Shown here in pieces: positions 1 through 10,514 of a stretch of DNA of 40,228 nt. The notes beneath the pieces are model-generated. The model saw nothing but the letters and a program-made list of their open reading frames with translations. It was not told where the DNA came from and searched no databases. The first letter of the stretch is position 1. Every line of letters begins with the position of its first letter. Source of the stretch: Anaerophilus nitritigenes (GTDB lineage: Bacteria; Bacillota; Clostridia; Peptostreptococcales; Thermotaleaceae); assembly GCF_004138215.1 (NCBI RefSeq), contig NZ_RYYS01000105.1:1-40228 (forward strand), given 5' to 3'. The translations under genes and the position numbers were made by a program.

Positions 1-126
1 ATTCTATTTCTTTCAATTCTTCTACTGTTACAATTTAACCTAAACATGAGATGTATTGAAACTGATAAAAATCTTTTGGATCATAGTTTTTAAGCTATTT
101 AACCTAAACATGAGAAGTATTGAAAC
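1..126 (+). CRISPR. 3' end of CRISPR array 1 (two repeats visible)
   Basis: Two 30-bp repeats lie at 33-62 and 97-126, starting ATTTAACCTA and ending TGTATTGAAAC (second copy AGTATTGAAAC). They are separated by a 34-bp spacer (63-96). Bases 1-32 look like a spacer cut by the window edge, since the spacers here are 34-36 bp. The second copy has one substitution (GAGATG to GAGAAG), as expected for a degenerate terminal repeat, so the array ends at 126 and its leader is outside the window to the left. The ATTGAAAC 3' end is the usual 8-nt crRNA handle, which places transcription on the + strand. Confidence 0.93.
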
Positions 127-476: not shown

Positions 477-2174
477 ATGTGTAAGGATGATTCAACATAT
501 ATATTTATAGATGTGTCTAAAAAACAATCATTTATATATAAAAATAATAAGTTAAAAGATAATGTTTATAATTCAGTAATTATAAAAGCTATAACAGAAA
601 CTTTAGAGGAAGAAAACATAAAGGATTTATATATAAAATTTAAAAAAGAAATAATATCTTTGAAATATGAACTAGATGAACTTAAAAAAGAAGGAAAAAT
701 AATAGAGACCATGTATTCTGGTGGAGGAAATAGTATTATCAAATTTGAAGACGAAAAAACTGCTATACAATTTATTGAAAATTATTCTTTGAAGATTTAT
801 GAAAAATTTCCACAACTAGAACTTTATATAAGCTATGTAAAGGGTAGCGAATTTGATATGGATGAAGAAAAAATTCATGAAGAATTACATAAAAGAGCAG
901 ATAAGCTTAAAGATGCTAGAAGGGGACAAATAAAAAGGTTGACTTATGGTGTTGAGCAAATAGATGAATTAGGTTATCCAAAACAAAATTCAAGTGAGAA
1001 AAAATGTGTTAAAGAAGCTAAAAATTTTTTGCAATCAAAATTAAAAAATGATTTAAATGAAAAAAATATAGAATTTACATATGAACTTGAAAGTTATAAA
1101 AAAAACAATAAACCATTTAAAGAAGATAATACAGTTAATAAAAATTACATGGGAGTAATAGCTATTGATGGCAATAAAATGGGAGAATTAGTAAATGCAA
1201 TAAAAACTATGGATAAAGAAAAGTCATATTATTATTATTTAAAACAAATGAGTAAAGAAATAAGTAAGGTTTATTATGAATCTGTAAAAAATGCAATATT
1301 GACTGTTGCTAAAAAAAGAAATGGGATTATAATAACTCCAATTGTGTTAGCAGGAGATGATATTTGCTTAATAACACAAGGAACTATAGCAATTGAATTA
1401 GCAGCAGAAATTATCAATCAATTACATATTCGATCAGATACATCTAAATTGGATAAAGAAAGCATATTAAAAAAATTGATGGAGAATAAAAATATAAAAA
1501 ATTTAACGGCAGCTGCAGGTATTTGTATAGTCAAACCAGGATATCCATTCTTCGAAAGTATAAAAATAGCAGAATCAAGACAAAGTTCTGGAAAAACAAG
1601 TATGCATCAAATAAAGACAATAGAAACCGATCAAGACAATAAGACAGATGGTCTTAGAGTAGCTAATGTATCTATGATTGATTGGGAAATAGTAAAAGGC
1701 TCTAATAAAGAAGAAATTGATTATCTTGAATATATATCAGAAGGATCAAAACTTAAAACGTATCATATTAAACCACTTTGGATAACTACACAAAGATATA
1801 AAGGAAATAAGTTTTATAACGAAGGGACATTTTTATATGAAGGATTTAAAAATATTGTAGAAAAAATTCAAGAAATGAAGAAAAAAGAAGAAATAAGTTC
1901 ATCAGAGTTACAAAATATAAAAAATGCCATGTATTCTGGGGAGAAACAATATGAATTAGTTTTTGATATGCAAAAAACAACAGGTATAAAAAACTTAGAA
2001 ACAATGATAAATCAAGAGTTGAATCAAGAAAATTCATCTGTTGAAAAAAGATATTGTATATTTAATAAACAATGTCAAGAAGATGAGAAAAAAAATGAGA
2101 GTATTTATATATTGAATGATATAATAGATGTTTTAGATTTTATGGAACCTGTAAAAATGGGAGGGGCAGAATGA
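477..2174 (+). CDS. cas10: Cas10-like protein (double palm, no HD domain, AGDD motif)
   Basis: This is the probable large subunit of a type III effector, 565 residues, short for Cas10. The N-terminus (IFIDVSKKQSFIY...NNKLKDN, about 8-30) and SGGGN (81-85) match the first palm-like domain of Cas10/Cmr2 proteins. GVIAIDGNKMGEL (226-238) with D231, followed by LAGDD (291-295), forms the second, cyclase-type palm. The canonical GGDD reads AGDD, keeping both aspartates. No N-terminal HD nuclease and no CxxC zinc finger are visible. The C-terminal part (about 400-565) is charged and mostly helical. ATG 477 follows AAAGGAAGTGGA. The gene overlaps the next by ATGA. Cyclic-oligoadenylate synthesis is possible from the retained aspartates but is inference. 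Confidence 0.82.
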   Translation: MCKDDSTYIFIDVSKKQSFIYKNNKLKDNVYNSVIIKAITETLEEENIKDLYIKFKKEIISLKYELDELKKEGKIIETMYSGGGNSIIKFEDEKTAIQFIENYSLKIYEKFPQLELYISYVKGSEFDMDEEKIHEELHKRADKLKDARRGQIKRLTYGVEQIDELGYPKQNSSEKKCVKEAKNFLQSKLKNDLNEKNIEFTYELESYKKNNKPFKEDNTVNKNYMGVIAIDGNKMGELVNAIKTMDKEKSYYYYLKQMSKEISKVYYESVKNAILTVAKKRNGIIITPIVLAGDDICLITQGTIAIELAAEIINQLHIRSDTSKLDKESILKKLMENKNIKNLTAAAGICIVKPGYPFFESIKIAESRQSSGKTSMHQIKTIETDQDNKTDGLRVANVSMIDWEIVKGSNKEEIDYLEYISEGSKLKTYHIKPLWITTQRYKGNKFYNEGTFLYEGFKNIVEKIQEMKKKEEISSSELQNIKNAMYSGEKQYELVFDMQKTTGIKNLETMINQELNQENSSVEKRYCIFNKQCQEDEKKNESIYILNDIIDVLDFMEPVKMGGAE

Positions 2175-2884
2175 ATAAGAAACTAAAGATTATTTTAAAA
2201 TCTGAAGCGATATTTAATAGTGGAGAAGCTGAAAGTAATATGGTTCATATAAAAGCACTTACTGATGAATTTGGATTTGTTTATTTTCATAGCAAAACAC
2301 TAAAAGGACAATTAAAAGATCATGCTTTTTGGTTGTATGAATTGTATAAATATGCTGAAAAAAAAGATAAGAGAATTGAAAAATCCAAACATTGGCTTAA
2401 ATGTATAGTGAAATTATTTGGAATTACAGAAGCTGAATTGAAATATAGAAATTTAGAAGAAGAAAGTAAACTTTACAAATATGTAGAAGGTTCTTTGAAG
2501 ATTAGCAATTTGGAGTTGGAAAAGCCCGTTAGAGAGTATTTTATAAATTTATTTAAAGAAGATAAACAAAGCAGTTACTATAGATTAACACAAAATGATT
2601 TGATACAAGCTCAAACACAAATAAGAACTAGTATAAGATTGAAAGATGGAGTTGCAGAACAAGGAGGATTAGTGACATATCATACCGTAAAAGAAGGATT
2701 AGTACTTTATTCTGAATTGAATTTACTGAATAATAAGTCAGATGTAAAAAATGATTTGAAGAAAGTAGAGCCTACCAATGAAGAATGTTGGGAAGTACTC
2801 GAAAAAATTGTAAAAACATTTAATAGAATCGGGGCGAATACACATAGAGGAAGAGGTGAAATAGAAGCAGTTTTAGAAAATTAG
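2171..2884 (+). CDS. small Cas7/Csm3-like RAMP subunit
   Basis: This 237-residue protein has the basic layout of a single Cas7-type RAMP: an N-terminal strand, the loop HSKTLKGQLKDH (about 41-52) corresponding to the (I)PGSSLKG motif, and a C-terminal glycine-rich loop IGANTHRGRGEIEAVL. It probably forms part of the crRNA-binding backbone. In the segment where Csm3 carries its target-cleaving aspartate (before SSLKG), this protein has SGEAESNMVHIK, with Glu/Ser instead of Asp, so it may lack RNase activity. Its ATG overlaps the cas10 stop codon, indicating translational coupling; the ribosome binding site GGGAGGGG is inside cas10. Confidence 0.72.
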   Translation: MNKKLKIILKSEAIFNSGEAESNMVHIKALTDEFGFVYFHSKTLKGQLKDHAFWLYELYKYAEKKDKRIEKSKHWLKCIVKLFGITEAELKYRNLEEESKLYKYVEGSLKISNLELEKPVREYFINLFKEDKQSSYYRLTQNDLIQAQTQIRTSIRLKDGVAEQGGLVTYHTVKEGLVLYSELNLLNNKSDVKNDLKKVEPTNEECWEVLEKIVKTFNRIGANTHRGRGEIEAVLEN

Positions 2885-2936: not shown

Positions 2937-4748
2937 ATGGCTTTTTATATTATAGATGTTGAAAATCTAGAGCCACTAAAAATAGGGGCATCAGGAAGTA
3001 AAGCAAATCAAACAGAGGCTACACTTGAGCATATACCAGGATCTACATTAAGAGGAGCAATTGTTAGTAGAATTTTCAATAAGTATCCTAATTTGACAGA
3101 AACTGAACAAATAGAGATCTTGACTAAAATTAAGTTTTATAATTTGTATCCAGTAGATAAGAAACAGCAAATATATGTTCCTACCCCCAAAAATTTAAGA
3201 GTAGATAAACATATATGGAGAAGTCAAAAAAATAAATTTGAACAATATAAGAAATTTAAAGATATAGAAAATAAGATTAGTTGTCAAATTGATAATCTTA
3301 TCGAACCCAAAAATGATAATTTAGAATATGATAAAGAAGATAGTACAACAAAACAACCTGCTAAAAATAATATAAGTTATAATTTTGTAATGATAGGAGA
3401 GTCACTAAAAGGAATCAATATAAAGAAAACTTATAAATTACACCACGATACAAGAAAAAACAGAAACAATAATACAGAAGAAAAAGATAACTTGTTTAGG
3501 TATGAATCTATTGACAAAGGACAAAAGTTTAGAGGTTTTATAAAAATTGAAGAAAATAGTTCGTGTTTAGACCAAAAAATAGAAGCTTGCTTTGGATACA
3601 GTGAAAATATTTATTTGGGAGGATCTAAAACAACAGGGTATGGGCATTGTAAGTTTAAAATACAAAAGATAGATGTTACAAGCCCTTCACAATTTATTTT
3701 TAAAAATAATCAAAGAGAACTTGATGATTCTCGGTTAGTTGTTTTGGCTTTGTCAGATTGTCTTTTTAGAGATGAATATGGACAACCAATATCGAAAATT
3801 CCTAAAGAAGAGATGGAAAGATATTTTTCAAATGCAAAACTCGAAGATGTGTATTTAGATATAGGACAAACAGAAGGTTACAATTCTAAATGGAGAGCGA
3901 GAAATCCAAAGGAAGCAACTATTAAGGCTGGTTCTGTATGGGTATATAATATTGACGCTGAGGAAAAAGAAAAATTTAAAAATAAAATTATTCAATTTGA
4001 AAGTATATTACATGGAGATAAAACTCAAGAAGGATATGGATGGTTAGCTGTAAACCTGAAATATCCTAATGAATTTGTATTTAATGAAATAGAAAAATTA
4101 AATTTAAGTTCAAAAAAATTAAATCAGATTGGTTTATCAGAGGCTAAAAAGATGATAGAAAAATATCCTTCAATTAAAATTATATTAGACGGTTTAGTTG
4201 ATGATAGAAAAAAATGGCTTCAAGGCATAATTAAATATAGTATTGATAACAAAGAATCTTCAACTGAAGAAGAGAACCAAAACAAGAACTTGTTTATAGA
4301 AGATAAAAGTAAATTAACTCAAAGTAGAAGAAGAAAGATGATGGAGATTTTAAAGGAAACAGAAAATAAGATTATGGAAATTTTCAATGAAACAAAAGAG
4401 GCGTTGATAAAAGAGAATTTTAAAATAGAAAGTACTGAAGAAACAAAAAAATATATAGATATTAGAAGTTACATAGAAAATAATGAAATATTTAGTTTTA
4501 AAGGAAAAAATTTTAAAAATTGCTTAGAGTATATTCAAAAAGAACTTACTGTTGAATCTGAAGAGGAAAAAGTGGGTGAATACATAGAAATTGATAAATA
4601 CATAGAAAATCATCTAAATAGTATTAAAGGGATACATTTCTATTTTAAATACCTAGAAAATAATCGATTAGCAAAAAGTTTGTTTTTAAATGAATTATTA
4701 TATGAATATTTTTATATGACCAATAGATTGAATGATGGGAGGGAATAA
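2937..4748 (+). CDS. csx10: Csx10/Cas5-like RAMP with helical C-terminal extension
   Basis: This 603-residue protein begins like Csx10, the Cas5-type subunit of type III-D: LEPLKIGASG (11-20), HIPGSTLRGAI (32-42) and KFYNLYPV...VPTPKNLR (66-88). Glycine loops at 228-238 (GGSKTTGYGHC) and 359-368 (HGDKTQEGYG) close two RAMP-like folds. Csx10 proteins normally end soon after the second loop. Here about 200 further residues (395-603), predicted largely helical and rich in Lys and Glu, follow. As no separate small subunit is in the operon, this tail could be a fused Cas11 (inference). ATG 2937 follows GGGAGGAGA; the 52-bp gap to the previous gene contains no terminator. Confidence 0.75.
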   Translation: MAFYIIDVENLEPLKIGASGSKANQTEATLEHIPGSTLRGAIVSRIFNKYPNLTETEQIEILTKIKFYNLYPVDKKQQIYVPTPKNLRVDKHIWRSQKNKFEQYKKFKDIENKISCQIDNLIEPKNDNLEYDKEDSTTKQPAKNNISYNFVMIGESLKGINIKKTYKLHHDTRKNRNNNTEEKDNLFRYESIDKGQKFRGFIKIEENSSCLDQKIEACFGYSENIYLGGSKTTGYGHCKFKIQKIDVTSPSQFIFKNNQRELDDSRLVVLALSDCLFRDEYGQPISKIPKEEMERYFSNAKLEDVYLDIGQTEGYNSKWRARNPKEATIKAGSVWVYNIDAEEKEKFKNKIIQFESILHGDKTQEGYGWLAVNLKYPNEFVFNEIEKLNLSSKKLNQIGLSEAKKMIEKYPSIKIILDGLVDDRKKWLQGIIKYSIDNKESSTEEENQNKNLFIEDKSKLTQSRRRKMMEILKETENKIMEIFNETKEALIKENFKIESTEETKKYIDIRSYIENNEIFSFKGKNFKNCLEYIQKELTVESEEEKVGEYIEIDKYIENHLNSIKGIHFYFKYLENNRLAKSLFLNELLYEYFYMTNRLNDGRE

Positions 4749-4751
4749 AAA

Positions 4752-6116
4752 GTGAATAATAAAATATTGATATATACTTTTCATCTTATTAGTGAAACAG
4801 CCCTCCGAATTGGTGATGGGGAAGATCAAAAGTGTATAGTTAAAAATGCAAAAAATGAACCTATAATATTGGGAACAACTATTGGAGGTATAATAAGAAG
4901 TTTTTTAGAAAAAACAACTGCAGAAATTAAAAACATACATGATTTTATGGGTGGAGAATCAGAAGAGAAAGAAAAAAGAGAATTCATAAAAAGTAGTGTT
5001 TATATTAGTGATGCTAAAATACCAACCAAATATAAATATGAAGTTAAGGAAGGAACTAAAATTTCTAGTGAATATGGTTCGGCTGAAAAAAACAATAAAT
5101 ATAGTTTGGAATATTTACCCTTAGGAACAAAAGTGAAGTTTAATATAGAAAAGTATATAAATGATGTTGAGGATGAAAAAATTTTTAATAAAATTATATA
5201 TACTATTGCACAAGGTTTTAAAAATAAAAATATTCGTCTAGGAGGGCATAAAAATAATGACTTTGGACGTATGAAATTAGAAGGTTTAGAAAAGCAAACA
5301 TATGACTTGTCTACTATAGAAGCTATTGAAGATTATATCGCCAATAGAACTATTAAAAGTGAATATGTAAAAGTAGAAATGTTGAATAAAGATAAAAAAA
5401 TGGATACATATGCACTAAAAGATAAGTTTCATAAAATCAAATTTGAAATGAACGGAAAATTTGATTATGGGGTATATCAAAACTATAAACTAGATAATGG
5501 AATAACAGGAATAAAAAATAACTCTATACCAGCATCGAGTATAAAAGGAATATTAAGAAGTGAAGTGGAAAAAATGATTAGAACGATTAGAGAATCAATG
5601 AATGAAGCTTACATTCAAAACAAAATAGAAGAAATATTTGGAGGTAACAATTCTGTTGGAAAAATTTATTGTACAGATGTAAGTATATCTGATAAAGATA
5701 ATAAAAACATATCACAAGTATTACATATTGATAAAGAGTTTTCAAAAATTGAAGAGGATCCTAGTTATGTAAAGATTGATAGATTGACAGGCGGAACATT
5801 TAATCAAGCTTTATTAAAACAAAGAGAAAATAGAGGGATGGCAAAAATACAAGTATCTATGCAAAAAGAATATGTGGTTAAAAATGATTTGGGGAAAGAA
5901 GAAATCGTTGATTATACAAATTATATATTTCCTATTCTTTATACGCTTGATCGAATCAAGAAAGGGGAGGTTCCATTAGGGGGAAGAACTTCTATTGGAT
6001 TAGGAACATTTACTGCGAATGAAATAAAAGTATCTATGGGAGATCATGAAGATTTAGATATAAAAAAGGACTTAGAAGATTACTTTGAAAAATTTGTTAG
6101 GTGGTGTGAAAAATGA
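4752..6116 (+). CDS. tandem double Cas7 RAMP (Cas7-2x-like)
   Basis: Two RAMP domains are fused in 454 residues. Domain 1 spans about 1-180: ALRIGDGEDQ (17-26), the loop LGTTIGGIIRS (40-50) and the glycine loop LGGHKNNDFGRM (163-174). Domain 2 spans about 225-430: IPASSIKGILRS (259-270), IDRLTGGTFNQALL (342-355, typical of Csm3/Cas7) and LGGRTSIGLGTF (409-420). D25 is spaced from the SSLKG-like loop as the catalytic Asp of Csm3 is; D248 is the nearest candidate in domain 2. A double Cas7 is a hallmark of the III-D variant. The start is GTG 4752 with GGGAGGGA upstream; the end overlaps the next gene by ATGA. Confidence 0.77.
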   Translation: MNNKILIYTFHLISETALRIGDGEDQKCIVKNAKNEPIILGTTIGGIIRSFLEKTTAEIKNIHDFMGGESEEKEKREFIKSSVYISDAKIPTKYKYEVKEGTKISSEYGSAEKNNKYSLEYLPLGTKVKFNIEKYINDVEDEKIFNKIIYTIAQGFKNKNIRLGGHKNNDFGRMKLEGLEKQTYDLSTIEAIEDYIANRTIKSEYVKVEMLNKDKKMDTYALKDKFHKIKFEMNGKFDYGVYQNYKLDNGITGIKNNSIPASSIKGILRSEVEKMIRTIRESMNEAYIQNKIEEIFGGNNSVGKIYCTDVSISDKDNKNISQVLHIDKEFSKIEEDPSYVKIDRLTGGTFNQALLKQRENRGMAKIQVSMQKEYVVKNDLGKEEIVDYTNYIFPILYTLDRIKKGEVPLGGRTSIGLGTFTANEIKVSMGDHEDLDIKKDLEDYFEKFVRWCEK

Positions 6117-6547
6117 TTACAAGAATAAAAAATGATTATAACATGGAAACATTTAATTTCATAGCCCATAGATTAGACAAAGTGATTGTAGGCAAGATTG
6201 ATAAAAATGTATCAGAAGGGGAAGAAATAAGAAACCAACTTAAAGAAGAATGGTTACTAGAACTACATATATTTAATGAAAAAAAAGAGATTTTTTATAG
6301 AAGGATAAATGGAGGACTAAAACCGTATAAAGTATTAGAGCATGAACAAGATGCTGAGAATAAAAGAATAAAAACAATTGACAGAAATTATATACTAGAA
6401 AAACAATTTCAAAGAGAGACACAATACAATATGTTGAGTATAAGAGAGTATATTAAATTAGATCAAGACTCACATTTGCCATATGTAGATAAAACAGTTT
6501 TACTAGATTTGATATATGATGAAAACATCAAGGGAGGATTAAAATAA
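6113..6547 (+). CDS. csx19: small Csx19-like protein
   Basis: This 144-residue protein is tightly coupled to the double-Cas7 gene (4-bp overlap). It has a short helical start, a strand-rich middle (LLELHIFNEKKEIFYRRING), a charged D-R-N-Y-I-L-E segment and the C-terminal SIREYIKLDQDSHLPYVDKT. This layout (a line about the target's face value, then REY-x(2)-D near the end) resembles the TIGR03984/Csx19 family found only in type III-D loci, and the position between two RAMP genes fits. Similarity was judged by eye and is weak, so the name is tentative. No catalytic motif is visible. Confidence 0.5.
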   Translation: MITRIKNDYNMETFNFIAHRLDKVIVGKIDKNVSEGEEIRNQLKEEWLLELHIFNEKKEIFYRRINGGLKPYKVLEHEQDAENKRIKTIDRNYILEKQFQRETQYNMLSIREYIKLDQDSHLPYVDKTVLLDLIYDENIKGGLK

Positions 6548-6548
6548 A

Positions 6549-8873
6549 ATGGCAGAAAAAAACAAAAAATTGAAAGAAGTATCATTGCCGTATGATTTTA
6601 TTCCATTCCCTGAAAAACAAAATTGGTATTATGTTTATAAAGAAAATACATTACCAAAACATAATAAAATAGAAGGTCTAAGTGGGAGAATTGACTATAG
6701 TCTAGATCCACAAACAGATATTTCATTGGAGTTTAGAAAAGCAATGGATTATAAAGATAGAAGGTGTAAGCATTATCAAATTAGTGGAAGTTCAATGAAG
6801 GGAAAAGTAAGGAGCAATTTGGAGATATTAAGCATGAGTTATCCTTGTATGATTGAAGGACGAAATATGACATATAGAAATCTTTCTGATTCAAAATATA
6901 AAGATAAGGTTAATAAAGAAGGAAATATTGAAAAAATCATTCATACAGGATTTTTGAAAAAAATTAATGGAGATTATTATATTCAGCCTGCAATTGAAAT
7001 TGGAAATAGATGGTTTAAAACAATTAAAGAAGATGAAATTATAGGACACATATCACAAAAAAATTTCAAATCAATTTTTTTATGGGATGATGATAGTAAA
7101 AAAGAGTTTAAAGAATTAAGAGGAAAAATAAATAAATATACAGAAAAAATTATTAAAATAAAAAAAGAGTTTAAAAAAGGTAATAAAAGTAATAAGGATA
7201 AAGAAATATTTGAAGAAATAATAAAAGAAATGGATGGAATTTTTAAAAAAGATTTTAATTTTGGGAAAAAATTTAATAAAAATAAAAAAGAATTTGACAT
7301 AGAGAAAGAAGCAAATAATATAAAGAAAGAATTAAGTAGAAAATTAAAAGAAATACCTACTCAAAAATTAGATCTCCAAGAATTGTTTAAGCTGTATGAA
7401 GAGAGAATGGCTTTAAAAGCTACCTTATATTTAAGATATCCAAAAATGAAAATGAATCGTGAGTTTCATCCATATCAAAAAAATATATATTATCAATTAA
7501 ATGAAAATAATGGATTAAAGGTAATAAAAACTGAAGTAGGGTCTAATGAAAAAAATGGACTTTTAAAAGGTTATCTATATAATTCAACAAATGCTAGTTC
7601 GAAAAGATCACATTATATTATTGGAGAGGTAGATAATTCTTTTGAATTTATGGAAAATGAAAAAACTAAGAGTTTATTGAAAATAGATGAATCTATTATA
7701 GTAGTTTATAAAGACATAATGAAAAATTTCAGAGTATCTCCAAAACGAGGCAATCAAAAAAAGAACCAAACAAATATAGATGATTATCAAAAGGAAATCA
7801 AAGCATTTTATGATATATTTGATGAAGAAAATCATAAAGAATTACAAAAAAAATATAAAGAAGGTATTATTGTTTTTTATAGAACTGATGGAGAAAATAA
7901 AGTAACAGATATAGGAAGAACTCCTCATATGAGAGTTAGTTATAATAATCAAATAGAAAATTTAATAAACAATACAGAAAATAAAAAAGATGAGTATATT
8001 GATTATGCTAGAGCATTATTTGGTTATGCAAATCATGATTTTAAATATGAGTTGGATGATGAAAAAGTCAAATCTATGTCTAATTATAAATCGAGATTAA
8101 GATTTTCACATATGGATATTGAAGCCGAAAGTGATCCAGAATTAATAAGTAATTTTACTTTAATGACACCATCTCCTACTGCTTGTGCAATGTATATTGA
8201 TCAAAAGAAAAAAGATGAAATAGTTACATATGACGATGAAAATGTTAAATTAAATGGTTATAAATATTACAAACTTCTAGATGAACCTATAAAACCAAAA
8301 CAAGATAATAATAAAGAGAGTTATCAATGTGATAAATTGATTATGAAGAAAGACAATATAAAAAAAATAACTGGAAGTATTTATTTTAAAAATATCAATA
8401 AAGTTGAATTAGGTTTATTGTTAAGTAGTTTGGATGCTAATCTTATTAAAGATAAAGTAGGCTTAAAAGATTGTGAACAATTATTTGACAGTATTGGTGG
8501 AGCTAAGCCTTATGGTTATGGACGTGTAAAAGTAAATATAGAAAAAGTAATAATAGATTATGATTTAGATTCTAATGTAAAACCTTCAAATATAGAGTTT
8601 TGGTTAGGAAAAAAAGAATATACAAAAGAAAATATTCAAGAATGTATAGATTTATATTATAAAAAAAGTATCATTGAAGATAAAGTTTTGGAAGCTTATG
8701 TTTGTAGTAAAGAAATAAAGGAAGAACCTAAAATTAATTGGGATAACTTGCAAAACCAGTTAGGAAATCCTGCAGGATATAAAAAAACATGGAAAATTAA
8801 AATTGAAAAACCTAAAAAATGTGAAGAAAAGTTGAATCTAGAAAGATTACTAAAGAAATATGGAAGAAAATAA
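6549..8873 (+). CDS. TIGR03986-like large RAMP (Cas7 with insertion)
   Basis: This 774-residue protein opens with PYDFIPFPE (14-22), GLSGRIDYSL (43-52) and YQISGSSMKGKVRSNLE (76-92). That series is typical of TIGR03986-family CRISPR RAMPs. A matching C-terminal loop IGGAKPYGYGRVKV lies around 647-660. Between about 180 and 290 sits a very lysine-rich, probably coiled-coil insertion without RAMP motifs. In type III-D effectors such a Cas7 with an insertion occupies one end of the backbone. D67 or D70 precede the SSMKG loop and could serve as cleavage residues, but the alignment is uncertain. ATG 6549 is preceded by GGGAGGATT. Confidence 0.75.
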   Translation: MAEKNKKLKEVSLPYDFIPFPEKQNWYYVYKENTLPKHNKIEGLSGRIDYSLDPQTDISLEFRKAMDYKDRRCKHYQISGSSMKGKVRSNLEILSMSYPCMIEGRNMTYRNLSDSKYKDKVNKEGNIEKIIHTGFLKKINGDYYIQPAIEIGNRWFKTIKEDEIIGHISQKNFKSIFLWDDDSKKEFKELRGKINKYTEKIIKIKKEFKKGNKSNKDKEIFEEIIKEMDGIFKKDFNFGKKFNKNKKEFDIEKEANNIKKELSRKLKEIPTQKLDLQELFKLYEERMALKATLYLRYPKMKMNREFHPYQKNIYYQLNENNGLKVIKTEVGSNEKNGLLKGYLYNSTNASSKRSHYIIGEVDNSFEFMENEKTKSLLKIDESIIVVYKDIMKNFRVSPKRGNQKKNQTNIDDYQKEIKAFYDIFDEENHKELQKKYKEGIIVFYRTDGENKVTDIGRTPHMRVSYNNQIENLINNTENKKDEYIDYARALFGYANHDFKYELDDEKVKSMSNYKSRLRFSHMDIEAESDPELISNFTLMTPSPTACAMYIDQKKKDEIVTYDDENVKLNGYKYYKLLDEPIKPKQDNNKESYQCDKLIMKKDNIKKITGSIYFKNINKVELGLLLSSLDANLIKDKVGLKDCEQLFDSIGGAKPYGYGRVKVNIEKVIIDYDLDSNVKPSNIEFWLGKKEYTKENIQECIDLYYKKSIIEDKVLEAYVCSKEIKEEPKINWDNLQNQLGNPAGYKKTWKIKIEKPKKCEEKLNLERLLKKYGRK

Positions 8874-8910: not shown

Positions 8911-9864
8911 ATGAGTGAAACTGTGAAAGATGAAAAAGAAAAGCTAAAAGAAATAGTGAAATCTAAGATTAAGGATAATTATAAAAATATGGAAAGGGTT
9001 ATTTGTGGAGAGCTGGAAATGGCTTCAAAACATCCAGGAATAACAGGACATTGTAGAGAAGAATATTGGATAGGTTTTTTTAGAAAAATAATTCCACAAA
9101 AATTTACATTAGAAACAGGGGTTATGATTATTGATTCTAAAGGAAATGTTTCTAATGAAGTAGATATAGTAGTATTTGATAATCAGTACACACCTTATTT
9201 ATTCAACTATGGTAGCTTGAAATTTATTCCTATTGAAGCAGTTTCGATAGTTATAGAGTGTAAAAGCACTAGTTGGACACAAGGAGGATTGGAAAATTGG
9301 AGTGAGTCAATTGATGAGTTAGAGGCTGTGCCGATAGGTATATCAAGAATGGTTAATGGATATATAATTGGATTAACTAATAAATCACAACAAAGAACTA
9401 GACCAATTAAAATATTAGCTAGTATTCGTAAAAATGCTGAGAATCAAACAATTGAAAATATAAATAAACATTTTGATATTTTGATTTATGAAAGCAAAGA
9501 AAAAGATAACGTTAGTTTAAAGGTCAATATCCCTAATAAAGATAAAAGTTTAGGTTGGTGGGGATCAAGATTGAATAATAATACTTCTAGTGATGAAGAT
9601 GAAGGGTTGGTATTAGAAAATGCAAAAAAGAATGAATATAATAAGCTAAGAGAAAACCAATATAATAATTATATTGATGTTGACGATAACAATGAAAAAG
9701 ATAAAGTAATATTAAAGAATACTTTAGAATCCCTTAAAATTGAAAACAATCCATTATTATCTTTAAATTTTCAACTGAATCAACTACTTATGCTTATTAA
9801 TAATCCTATGCTATTTCCTCATTTTGCATATGCAAATTTTTTAAAAGAAGAATCAAAGGAATAG
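8911..9864 (+). CDS. DUF6602-like PD-(D/E)XK nuclease in the cas operon
   Basis: This 317-residue protein carries a restriction-endonuclease-like core: GHCREEYWIGFFRKIIP (46-62), LETGVMIIDSKGNVSNEVDIVVFD (67-90) with D85, then PIEAVSIVIECKST (107-120) giving E116-x-K118. This order (an E-containing helix, G-V-hydrophobic-D-x(2)-G-x(2)-S, VDIV, then E-x-K) matches the DUF6602 nuclease-like family. The C-terminal 140 residues are charged (SSDEDEG at about 227) and end in a hydrophobic helix (LLSLNFQLNQLLMLI). No CARF, SAVED or other nucleotide sensor is recognisable. It is the last gene before the operon terminator, 37 bp after the large RAMP, with ribosome binding site AAGGAGAT. It is plausibly the effector or accessory nuclease. 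Confidence 0.72.
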   Translation: MSETVKDEKEKLKEIVKSKIKDNYKNMERVICGELEMASKHPGITGHCREEYWIGFFRKIIPQKFTLETGVMIIDSKGNVSNEVDIVVFDNQYTPYLFNYGSLKFIPIEAVSIVIECKSTSWTQGGLENWSESIDELEAVPIGISRMVNGYIIGLTNKSQQRTRPIKILASIRKNAENQTIENINKHFDILIYESKEKDNVSLKVNIPNKDKSLGWWGSRLNNNTSSDEDEGLVLENAKKNEYNKLRENQYNNYIDVDDNNEKDKVILKNTLESLKIENNPLLSLNFQLNQLLMLINNPMLFPHFAYANFLKEESKE

Positions 9865-10157: not shown

Positions 10158-10514
10158 ATTTAACCTAAACATGAGATGTATTGAAACTCAAATAATGATA
10201 CCCAATATCATTCCACTTGTTAAATTTAACCTAAACATGAGATGTATTGAAACTACAACTAAGATATTATGAAAATTACACAATAAAATTTAACCTAAAC
10301 ATGAGATGTATTGAAACTAAATTGGTATGACTTGTTGTGCTGGAATAATTACAATTTAACCTAAACATGAGATGTATTGAAACATGCTCTTAAAATGCTC
10401 TCTCTATAATGCTCAGTTATTTAACCTAAACATGAGATGTATTGAAACTTTATTCTAGTATTTTGATTGATAGCTTTTGCCAAAATTTAACCTAAACATG
10501 AGATGTATTGAAAT
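10158..10514 (+). CRISPR. CRISPR array 2: six repeats, five spacers
   Basis: The 30-bp repeats are at 10158-10187, 10224-10253, 10288-10317, 10354-10383, 10419-10448 and 10485-10514. The spacers are 36, 34, 36, 35 and 36 bp. The first five repeats are identical to each other and to the first repeat of array 1. The last ends in T instead of C, marking the trailer end. The ATTGAAAC handle shows + strand transcription. The array is followed at once by a strong hairpin terminator. Confidence 0.98.

Follow-up and report, generated by a model that had tools for sequence, protein, structure and literature searches.

Which protein supplies the small subunit (Cas11) in a type III-D CRISPR operon without a recognised cas11 gene? 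The question is raised by a locus of Anaerophilus nitritigenes, and the stretch of DNA that we analysed (the window) is contig C9, 40,228 bases long, from a genome assembly of 3.06 Mb comprising 112 contigs, with 99.5% completeness. An operon on its plus strand has the gene order cas10, cas7, csx10, cas7-2x, csx19, cas7-insertion, and nucC, with CRISPR repeats on both sides. A preliminary description of this DNA had pointed out that the csx10 product continues well beyond its Cas5 part, and had proposed a Cas5-Cas11 fusion as the simplest reading. The genes were named by their PADLOC and NCBIfam matches, with shorter labels after III-Dv usage, and the features are as follows.

33..126, plus strand: two CRISPR repeats of 30 nt, the second with one mismatch, at the contig start
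477..2174, plus strand: cas10, 565 aa (PADLOC Cas10d, 3e-62; PDB 8s9t_C, E 1.7e-13)
2171..2884, plus strand: cas7, an ORF of its own, 237 aa (PADLOC Csm3, 3.1e-25)
2937..4748, plus strand: csx10, whole ORF with ATG start, 603 aa
2937..4067, plus strand: Cas5 (Csx10) part, residues 1-377, with glycine loops at 227-236 and 359-368
4068..4745, plus strand: C-terminal extension, residues 378-603, proposed linker and Cas11 domain
4752..6116, plus strand: cas7-2x, 454 aa, two Cas7 domains (PADLOC Cas7_IIId, 9e-51)
6113..6547, plus strand: csx19, 144 aa (PADLOC Csx19, 2.5e-07; NCBIfam TIGR03984, 5.1e-08, just below cut-off)
6549..8873, plus strand: cas7-insertion, 774 aa (NCBIfam TIGR03986, 8.8e-57, above cut-off)
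8911..9864, plus strand: nucC, effector nuclease, 317 aa (PADLOC NucC, 2.8e-79)
10158..10514, plus strand: CRISPR array, six copies of the same 30-nt repeat, the last with one mismatch

The operon contains Csx10, Cas10, several Cas7 proteins, and Csx19, as expected for a type III-D effector module, in which Csx19 is often present, and the window matches to TIGR02674 (Csx10) and TIGR03984 (Csx19) lie below the cut-offs of these models. The csx10 product is a Csx10/Cas5_IIId protein (PADLOC PDLC02090, E 1.2e-42, residues 7-487), and the family profile matches PDB 8s9t_A and 8bmw_M. The cas10 product has an AGDD palm motif at residues 292-295 and no HD dipeptide; AGDD is one of the Cas10 motif variants that PMC11229360 describes in loci with known effectors. 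The window cas7 matched the cas7 profile at 1.1e-63, a profile built partly from the window cas7 itself. Seven further repeat copies were observed at the end of contig C82, beside a Cas6 gene (L112, 9658-10347). Since the same repeat stands at both contig ends, C82 and the window contig are probably neighbours, with the CRISPR array continuing across the break. The single Cas1 match of the genome sits on another contig.

No Cas11 gene was found in the operon, in agreement with the earlier claim. The gaps from cas10 to nucC are at most 52 bases, and no further plus-strand ORF of 80 aa or more was found between the two arrays. Genome scans with Csm2 (PF03750) and Cmr5 (PF09701) gave matches below the curated cut-off only, and two III-D Csm2 profiles gave zero matches in the genome. 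A separate Cas11 elsewhere in the genome, named in the preliminary description as evidence against a fusion, was thus not found with these four profiles, which a very diverged Cas11 would escape. In type I systems, the Cas11 encoded within cas8 is a precedent for a product of an internal start, and a separate Cas11 might also be made from within csx10. The best candidate is the in-frame ATG of M406 (4152..4154, plus strand), which has GAGG 8 bases upstream with a duplex energy of -5.8 and would give a product of 198 aa. However, the true csx10 start is stronger (-10.2), M406 is replaced by Ile in the same-genus relative L027, and strong sites before in-frame starts were not enriched among 43 loci (17 of 261, compared with 48 of 507 out of frame). 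The solved III-Dv complex is also described as having no repeated subunits (PMC11026444). The proposed check for an internal start therefore yielded no conserved one and left M406 unsupported, and we regard a separate product of this kind as very unlikely. Another candidate for the small subunit is Csx19, which is the sole small protein in the operon, and one PADLOC Csx19 model (PDLC01034) is annotated 'core gene (cas11)'. Nevertheless, PMC11026444 describes the Csx19 of the III-Dv structure as a protein of beta sheets that sits at the base, between Cas5 and Cas10, with Cas11 forming a helical domain of its own. Synechocystis also carries both Csx19 and Cas11, and it is extremely improbable that Csx19 is the small subunit here.

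We then turned to the C-terminal part of Csx10. The extra residues reported after the second glycine loop (359-368) are present, amounting to 226 aa past residue 377, and the extension begins at about residue 378, slightly before the position of 395 given earlier. In a 13-sequence Csx10 alignment, G360, G366, and G368 are invariant. The extension, which is the longest among the loci gathered, is rich in charged residues as reported (K+R+E+D+Q 38%, G+P 4%). Its helical character stands as a prediction: the AlphaFold2 model shows mostly helices at very low confidence. When the structure prediction proposed in the preliminary description was run with two input sequences each (window and L026), the pLDDT values were 34.5 for the whole Csx10 and 37.8 for the extension alone, and the helices drawn speak neither for nor against a Cas11 fold. 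Between the window and L027, the extension shows 88.9% identity with a dN/dS of 0.22, and the Cas5 part 96.3% identity with a dN/dS of 0.14. Judged by these ratios, the extension is under constraint, though weaker than that on the Cas5 part, and a dN/dS of 0.22 rules out an unconstrained sequence. When the window extension alone was searched, the single PADLOC family matched was Csm2, whose profile aligned with residues 455-517 (4299..4487, plus strand) at a noise-level E of 0.013; a T-Q-S-R-R-R-K run in these residues lines up with the S-x-x-Q helix present in other extensions. Since the extension of L027, a 94%-identical relative of the same genus, matched no PADLOC family, we downgraded the Csm2 match as support.

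To place the extension within its family, we gathered 51 Csx10 loci, consisting of the window, 9 class relatives, 2 family relatives, 32 phylum relatives, and 7 plasmid records. The class relatives came from 391 sampled genomes, the family relatives from 16, and the phylum relatives from 398 sampled genomes (profile PDLC02090), the class and phylum sets being samples of larger groups. L026, from the class sample, stands for L011, which is apparently the same contig (each has 40,986 bases), and three Synechocystis copies and one Nostoc record were omitted from the 11 plasmid records listed. Of two scans of genome contigs, one gave no locus and the other gave L026 alone, and five scans of viral contigs revealed no relative. 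The extensions fall into two length groups: 44 of the 51 loci (43 of the 50 relatives besides the window) have 131-226 aa and six have 5-9 aa, with one protein (L013) cut by an assembly gap. In each of the six loci of the short group, the end of csx10 is overlapped by another ORF, which encodes 131-215 aa. A Csm2 profile matches this small ORF in five of them, namely the plasmid locus L030 and four of the five short genomes, and the small ORF of the remaining short genome, which has no Csm2 match, is partly masked by N. A Csm2 match (PDLC01474) beside csx10 was found in none of the other 39 genomes (38 long and one gap-cut), and genome G758 has a weak PDLC01474 match (E 4.9e-4) on a different contig from its csx10. 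PDLC01519 matches three of 44 genomes, all three of the short type. In 42 of the 44 long loci, csx10 is followed by an ORF of 330 aa or more, which corresponds to cas7-2x in size. Across the family, the extension takes the place of a separate small-subunit gene, as seen from the swap with the adjacent ORF. Since the six short proteins make up one clade, set apart by a branch with support 98/93 on the 48-row Cas5 tree, this swap is counted as one evolutionary event and not as many. For annotation, the absence of a cas11 gene from a III-D locus may simply mean that Csx10 is long, as it is in 44 of 51 loci. Near one short Csx10, a 138-aa protein (L101, 9323-9739) had an E of 0.01 with the unfused-extension profile and matched no PADLOC family; it is possibly another small-subunit protein.

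Homology of the extensions to a structurally proven Cas11 was found at the family level. First, a profile of 25 unfused Csx10 proteins (A12, built without Synechocystis) matched PDB 8s9t_A with an E of 1.9e-48, and positions 2-529 of 537 in the profile aligned with residues 246-773 of 791, spanning the Cas11 domain. Cas5 supplies most of this score and the Cas11 domain adds about 16 bits: Synechocystis scored 164.9 bits in full, 148.6 bits without the last 199 residues, and a mean of 152.3 and a maximum of 158.9 bits when these residues were shuffled (20 shuffles). In the same shuffle test, the gain was clear for L031 (183.4 vs at most 161.2) and L080 (271.1 vs 238.1), marginal for L028 (245.8 vs 243.7), and absent for L085 (179.2 vs 183.7), so that for two of the five fused proteins tested (L028 and L085) the extension does not clearly raise the score over that of its shuffled versions. 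Second, hhalign comparison of the extensions only, with 26 unfused against 17 fused proteins (including Synechocystis), gave a score of 35.2 over 138 columns, compared with 8.3 when reversed. Against Csm2, the scores were 25.6 for the unfused extensions (reversed 8.6), 20.0 for all 44 extensions (reversed 9.1), and 11.5 for the fused extensions, which is like their reversed control of 11.0. Among 20 background windows taken from these loci, the highest scores were 19.2 against the unfused extensions, 18.9 against the fused ones, and 14.6 against Csm2. Third, a profile of 22 unfused extensions, with the window's own clade excluded, retrieved Synechocystis L029 with an E of 0.0046 and L031 with an E of 4e-08 among 4157 sequences.

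Searches of the PDB with extension-only profiles gave nothing significant, with 8s9t_A not appearing up to E 10; among the nine matches listed for the unfused profile were two Csm2 chains (E 0.34 and 0.39), and the matches listed for the fused profile contained no Csm2. A single-sequence search of the PDB with the window Csx10 found 8s9t_A with an E of only 0.66, in the Cas5 region, and Pfam gave no match above cut-off for ten extension and small-subunit sequences. The architecture of Cas5 followed by an extension is already contained in curated profile sets, where it is labelled Cas5_IIId. PADLOC PDLC02090 spans both parts and matches 12 of the 26 unfused extensions alone, and PDLC02089 and PDLC02091 (679 and 709 positions) align in their N-terminal parts with the window cas7 (5-200 and 2-192) and further on with csx10 (306-669 and 232-684).

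Within the window's own clade, which has four members (the window, L027, L026, and L092), the relationship becomes indirect. The hhalign scores of the window-clade extension profile were 13.6 against the unfused extensions, 12.0 against the fused ones, and 11.3 against Csm2, with a best background of 20.3. The profile of 22 unfused extensions reached only L092 of this clade, with an E of 0.02, shuffled decoys starting from 0.21, and among 1,000 decoys searched with the profile of fused extensions, one came at 0.0037, ahead of every window-clade member. When full-length profiles were compared directly, the alignments of the window clade with ten other unfused proteins, with the fused proteins, and with the Synechocystis pair ended with Cas5. 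The window clade aligns with L012, L014, and L077 as far as clade position 464, some 90 positions beyond Cas5. The alignment of this group with the ten other unfused proteins continues through the extension, and that of the ten with the Synechocystis pair continues through Cas11. Because the direct comparisons end at Cas5, the window extension is assigned as a putative Cas11 by its position, its family, and this chain of profiles rather than by a direct match.

These results bear on whether the extension could be a helical addition that has nothing to do with Cas11, such as a module for dimerisation or NucC docking, with the Cas10 C-terminus alone filling the place of the small subunit. The window-clade extension is not recognisably like the others, NucC lies near csx10 in all four members, and a type III-A2 variant in which no Cas11 was identifiable is reported in PMC12669027. 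On the other hand, L012, L014, and L077 group with the window in a clade of 11 rows that is well supported on the Cas5 tree, and their extensions can be aligned with those of the remaining family members, and the position, the length, and the csm2 swap are consistent across the family. Since Cas5 carries most of the 8s9t_A score, we raised our estimate for an unrelated add-on from quite unlikely to somewhat less so, and lowered our confidence in the fusion slightly from its former higher level. An unrelated add-on is still unlikely in our estimate.

Based on the synteny and the family homology, which support the reading that the preliminary description considered simplest, we suggest with good confidence that the window Csx10 is a Cas5-Cas11 fusion in a III-D effector complex of III-Dv layout. 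Residues 1-377 would be Cas5, residues from about 378 to 400 a linker, and those from about 400 to 603 a single Cas11 domain. Cas5 in type III complexes holds the 5' handle of the crRNA. The Cas11 domain would turn back to lie against the Cas7 filament, adjoining the helical C-terminal part of Cas10. In this position it would hold the duplex of crRNA and target and link target binding to Cas10. Cas7, Cas7-2x, Csx19, and Cas7-insertion are supplied by separate genes. Upon binding of target RNA, Cas10 would make cyclic oligoadenylate, which would fire NucC. The gene layout, the failure to find a Cas11 gene, the family-level homology to the solved Cas7-Cas5-Cas11 protein, and the swap with a separate small-subunit gene are observations, and we infer the fold and placement of the window extension, as well as this signalling chain.

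We also compared the Cas7 catalytic sites of the window with those of its relatives. At site 1 of the window cas7 (2171-2884; Synechocystis D26), His stands instead of Asp. The Asp is kept in 37 of 43 loci (counted without the six short loci, L097, and L098) and is replaced by His in the window, L027, and L026, by Gln in L092, and by Asn in L028 and L016. In cas7-2x (4752-6116), L026 and L092 have no Asp in the canonical column of sites 2 and 3, and in the window and L027 an Asp lies 1-3 residues from this column and may or may not serve the site; L017, L018, and L028, among others, also lack Asp at both sites, in columns that are loosely aligned and for which L077 differs between two alignments. 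NucC relatives near csx10 were also observed in L027, L026, L092, L077, and L093, with two copies in L093. The pairing of NucC with III-D is not new, as a Virgibacillus case is described in PMC11229360. A NucC-linked III-B complex is presented in PMC8682760 as cleaving its target very slowly, which is thought to prolong NucC activity. Taking this case together with the Asp losses, we tentatively propose that the NucC-bearing III-D clade of the window gave up target RNA cleavage and turned into a switch that senses RNA and leaves Cas10 signalling and NucC on, and that its built-in Cas11, freed from the cleavage sites, diverged beyond recognition. We hold this proposal to be rather doubtful: the NucC loci L077 and L093 keep the site-1 Asp, and several loci without NucC lack at least one of these Asp residues.

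The evolution of the fusions was examined on a tree of the Cas5 part with 48 rows, from which L013 (assembly gap) and L097 and L098 (incomplete N-terminus and no upstream ORF) were left out; L098 was also excluded from the comparison of fused and unfused proteins and from the internal-start scan. The 25 unfused loci that were counted were all confirmed to have a separate cas7 ORF adjoining csx10. The 17 fused proteins require six changes, five of them forced by well-supported branches, and a single clade of fused proteins was rejected with p 3.1e-62 on the 48 rows and p 8.95e-07 on a 50-row tree. The long branches of L019, L028, and L093 make some placements unsure, and the tree gives no direction between fusion and fission. 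Among the loci sampled, the attachment of Cas11 to Cas5 thus needs one change on the tree and the Cas7-Cas5 junction at least five, and the III-Dv-style fusions are accordingly not one lineage, since the junction changed at least five times. If so, Cas5-Cas11 would be a stable unit to which Cas7 is attached in a labile manner, and the finding adds to the picture of how type III effectors passed from many genes to few. A fused Cas7-Cas5-extension protein of 742 aa was observed in a genome from the window's own family (L028, 6547-8775), where a Mem_03-like protein (E 0.00025) stands in the neighbourhood instead of NucC.

Among known systems, the III-Dv complex of Synechocystis PCC 6803 is the nearest solved relative of the window. 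Its protein (WP_011153735.1; PDB 8s9t chain A), the III-D precedent for a fusion invoked in the preliminary description, does exist and is described as Cas7-Cas5-Cas11 in PMC11026444. As in the window, a C-terminal extension follows Cas5, and the operons are collinear (cas10, [cas7/cas5-cas11], cas7-2x, csx19, and cas7-insertion). While cas7, cas5, and cas11 are one gene in Synechocystis, the window cas7 is a separate ORF 52 bases before csx10, and no direct alignment was obtained between the window-clade extension and the Cas11 domain of Synechocystis. According to the structural description in PMC11026444, the III-Dv Cas11 domain follows the Cas7 filament alongside the Cas10 C-terminus, arginines R678, R706, R769, and R773 of the fusion lie at the Cas7-2x cleavage sites, and Cas10 makes cyclic oligoadenylate upon target RNA binding. 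By analogy, the duplex of guide and target would be held by the window extension and thereby linked to Cas10, and NucC would be the effector. We found no description of an arrangement with separate Cas7 and Cas5-Cas11 within the openly licensed PMC literature searched.

The unfused Csx10 proteins on cyanobacterial plasmids (Planktothrix, Nostoc, Anabaena, and Sphaerospermopsis) likewise have a separate cas7. They are 533-548 aa long with extensions of 168-176 aa, are directly followed by cas7-2x, and are 20-25% identical with the window protein, and a search of the four stretches fetched revealed no NucC relative. The short-Csx10 loci, which we label III-D1-like (e.g. Allocoleopsis pMIC7113.03, L030), belong to the same Csx10 family; unlike the window, they have a separate Csm2/Cas11 gene, overlapping csx10 by 4 bases in L030. 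Finally, III-Dv is described in PMC11026444 as an intermediate towards type III-E, and the window cas7-2x matches the NCBIfam model of the III-E protein Cas7-11 (Cas7-11e gRAMP) partially, with 4.6e-11, far below the family cut-off. Type III-E is a single polypeptide without Cas5 and Cas10, whereas the window has both.
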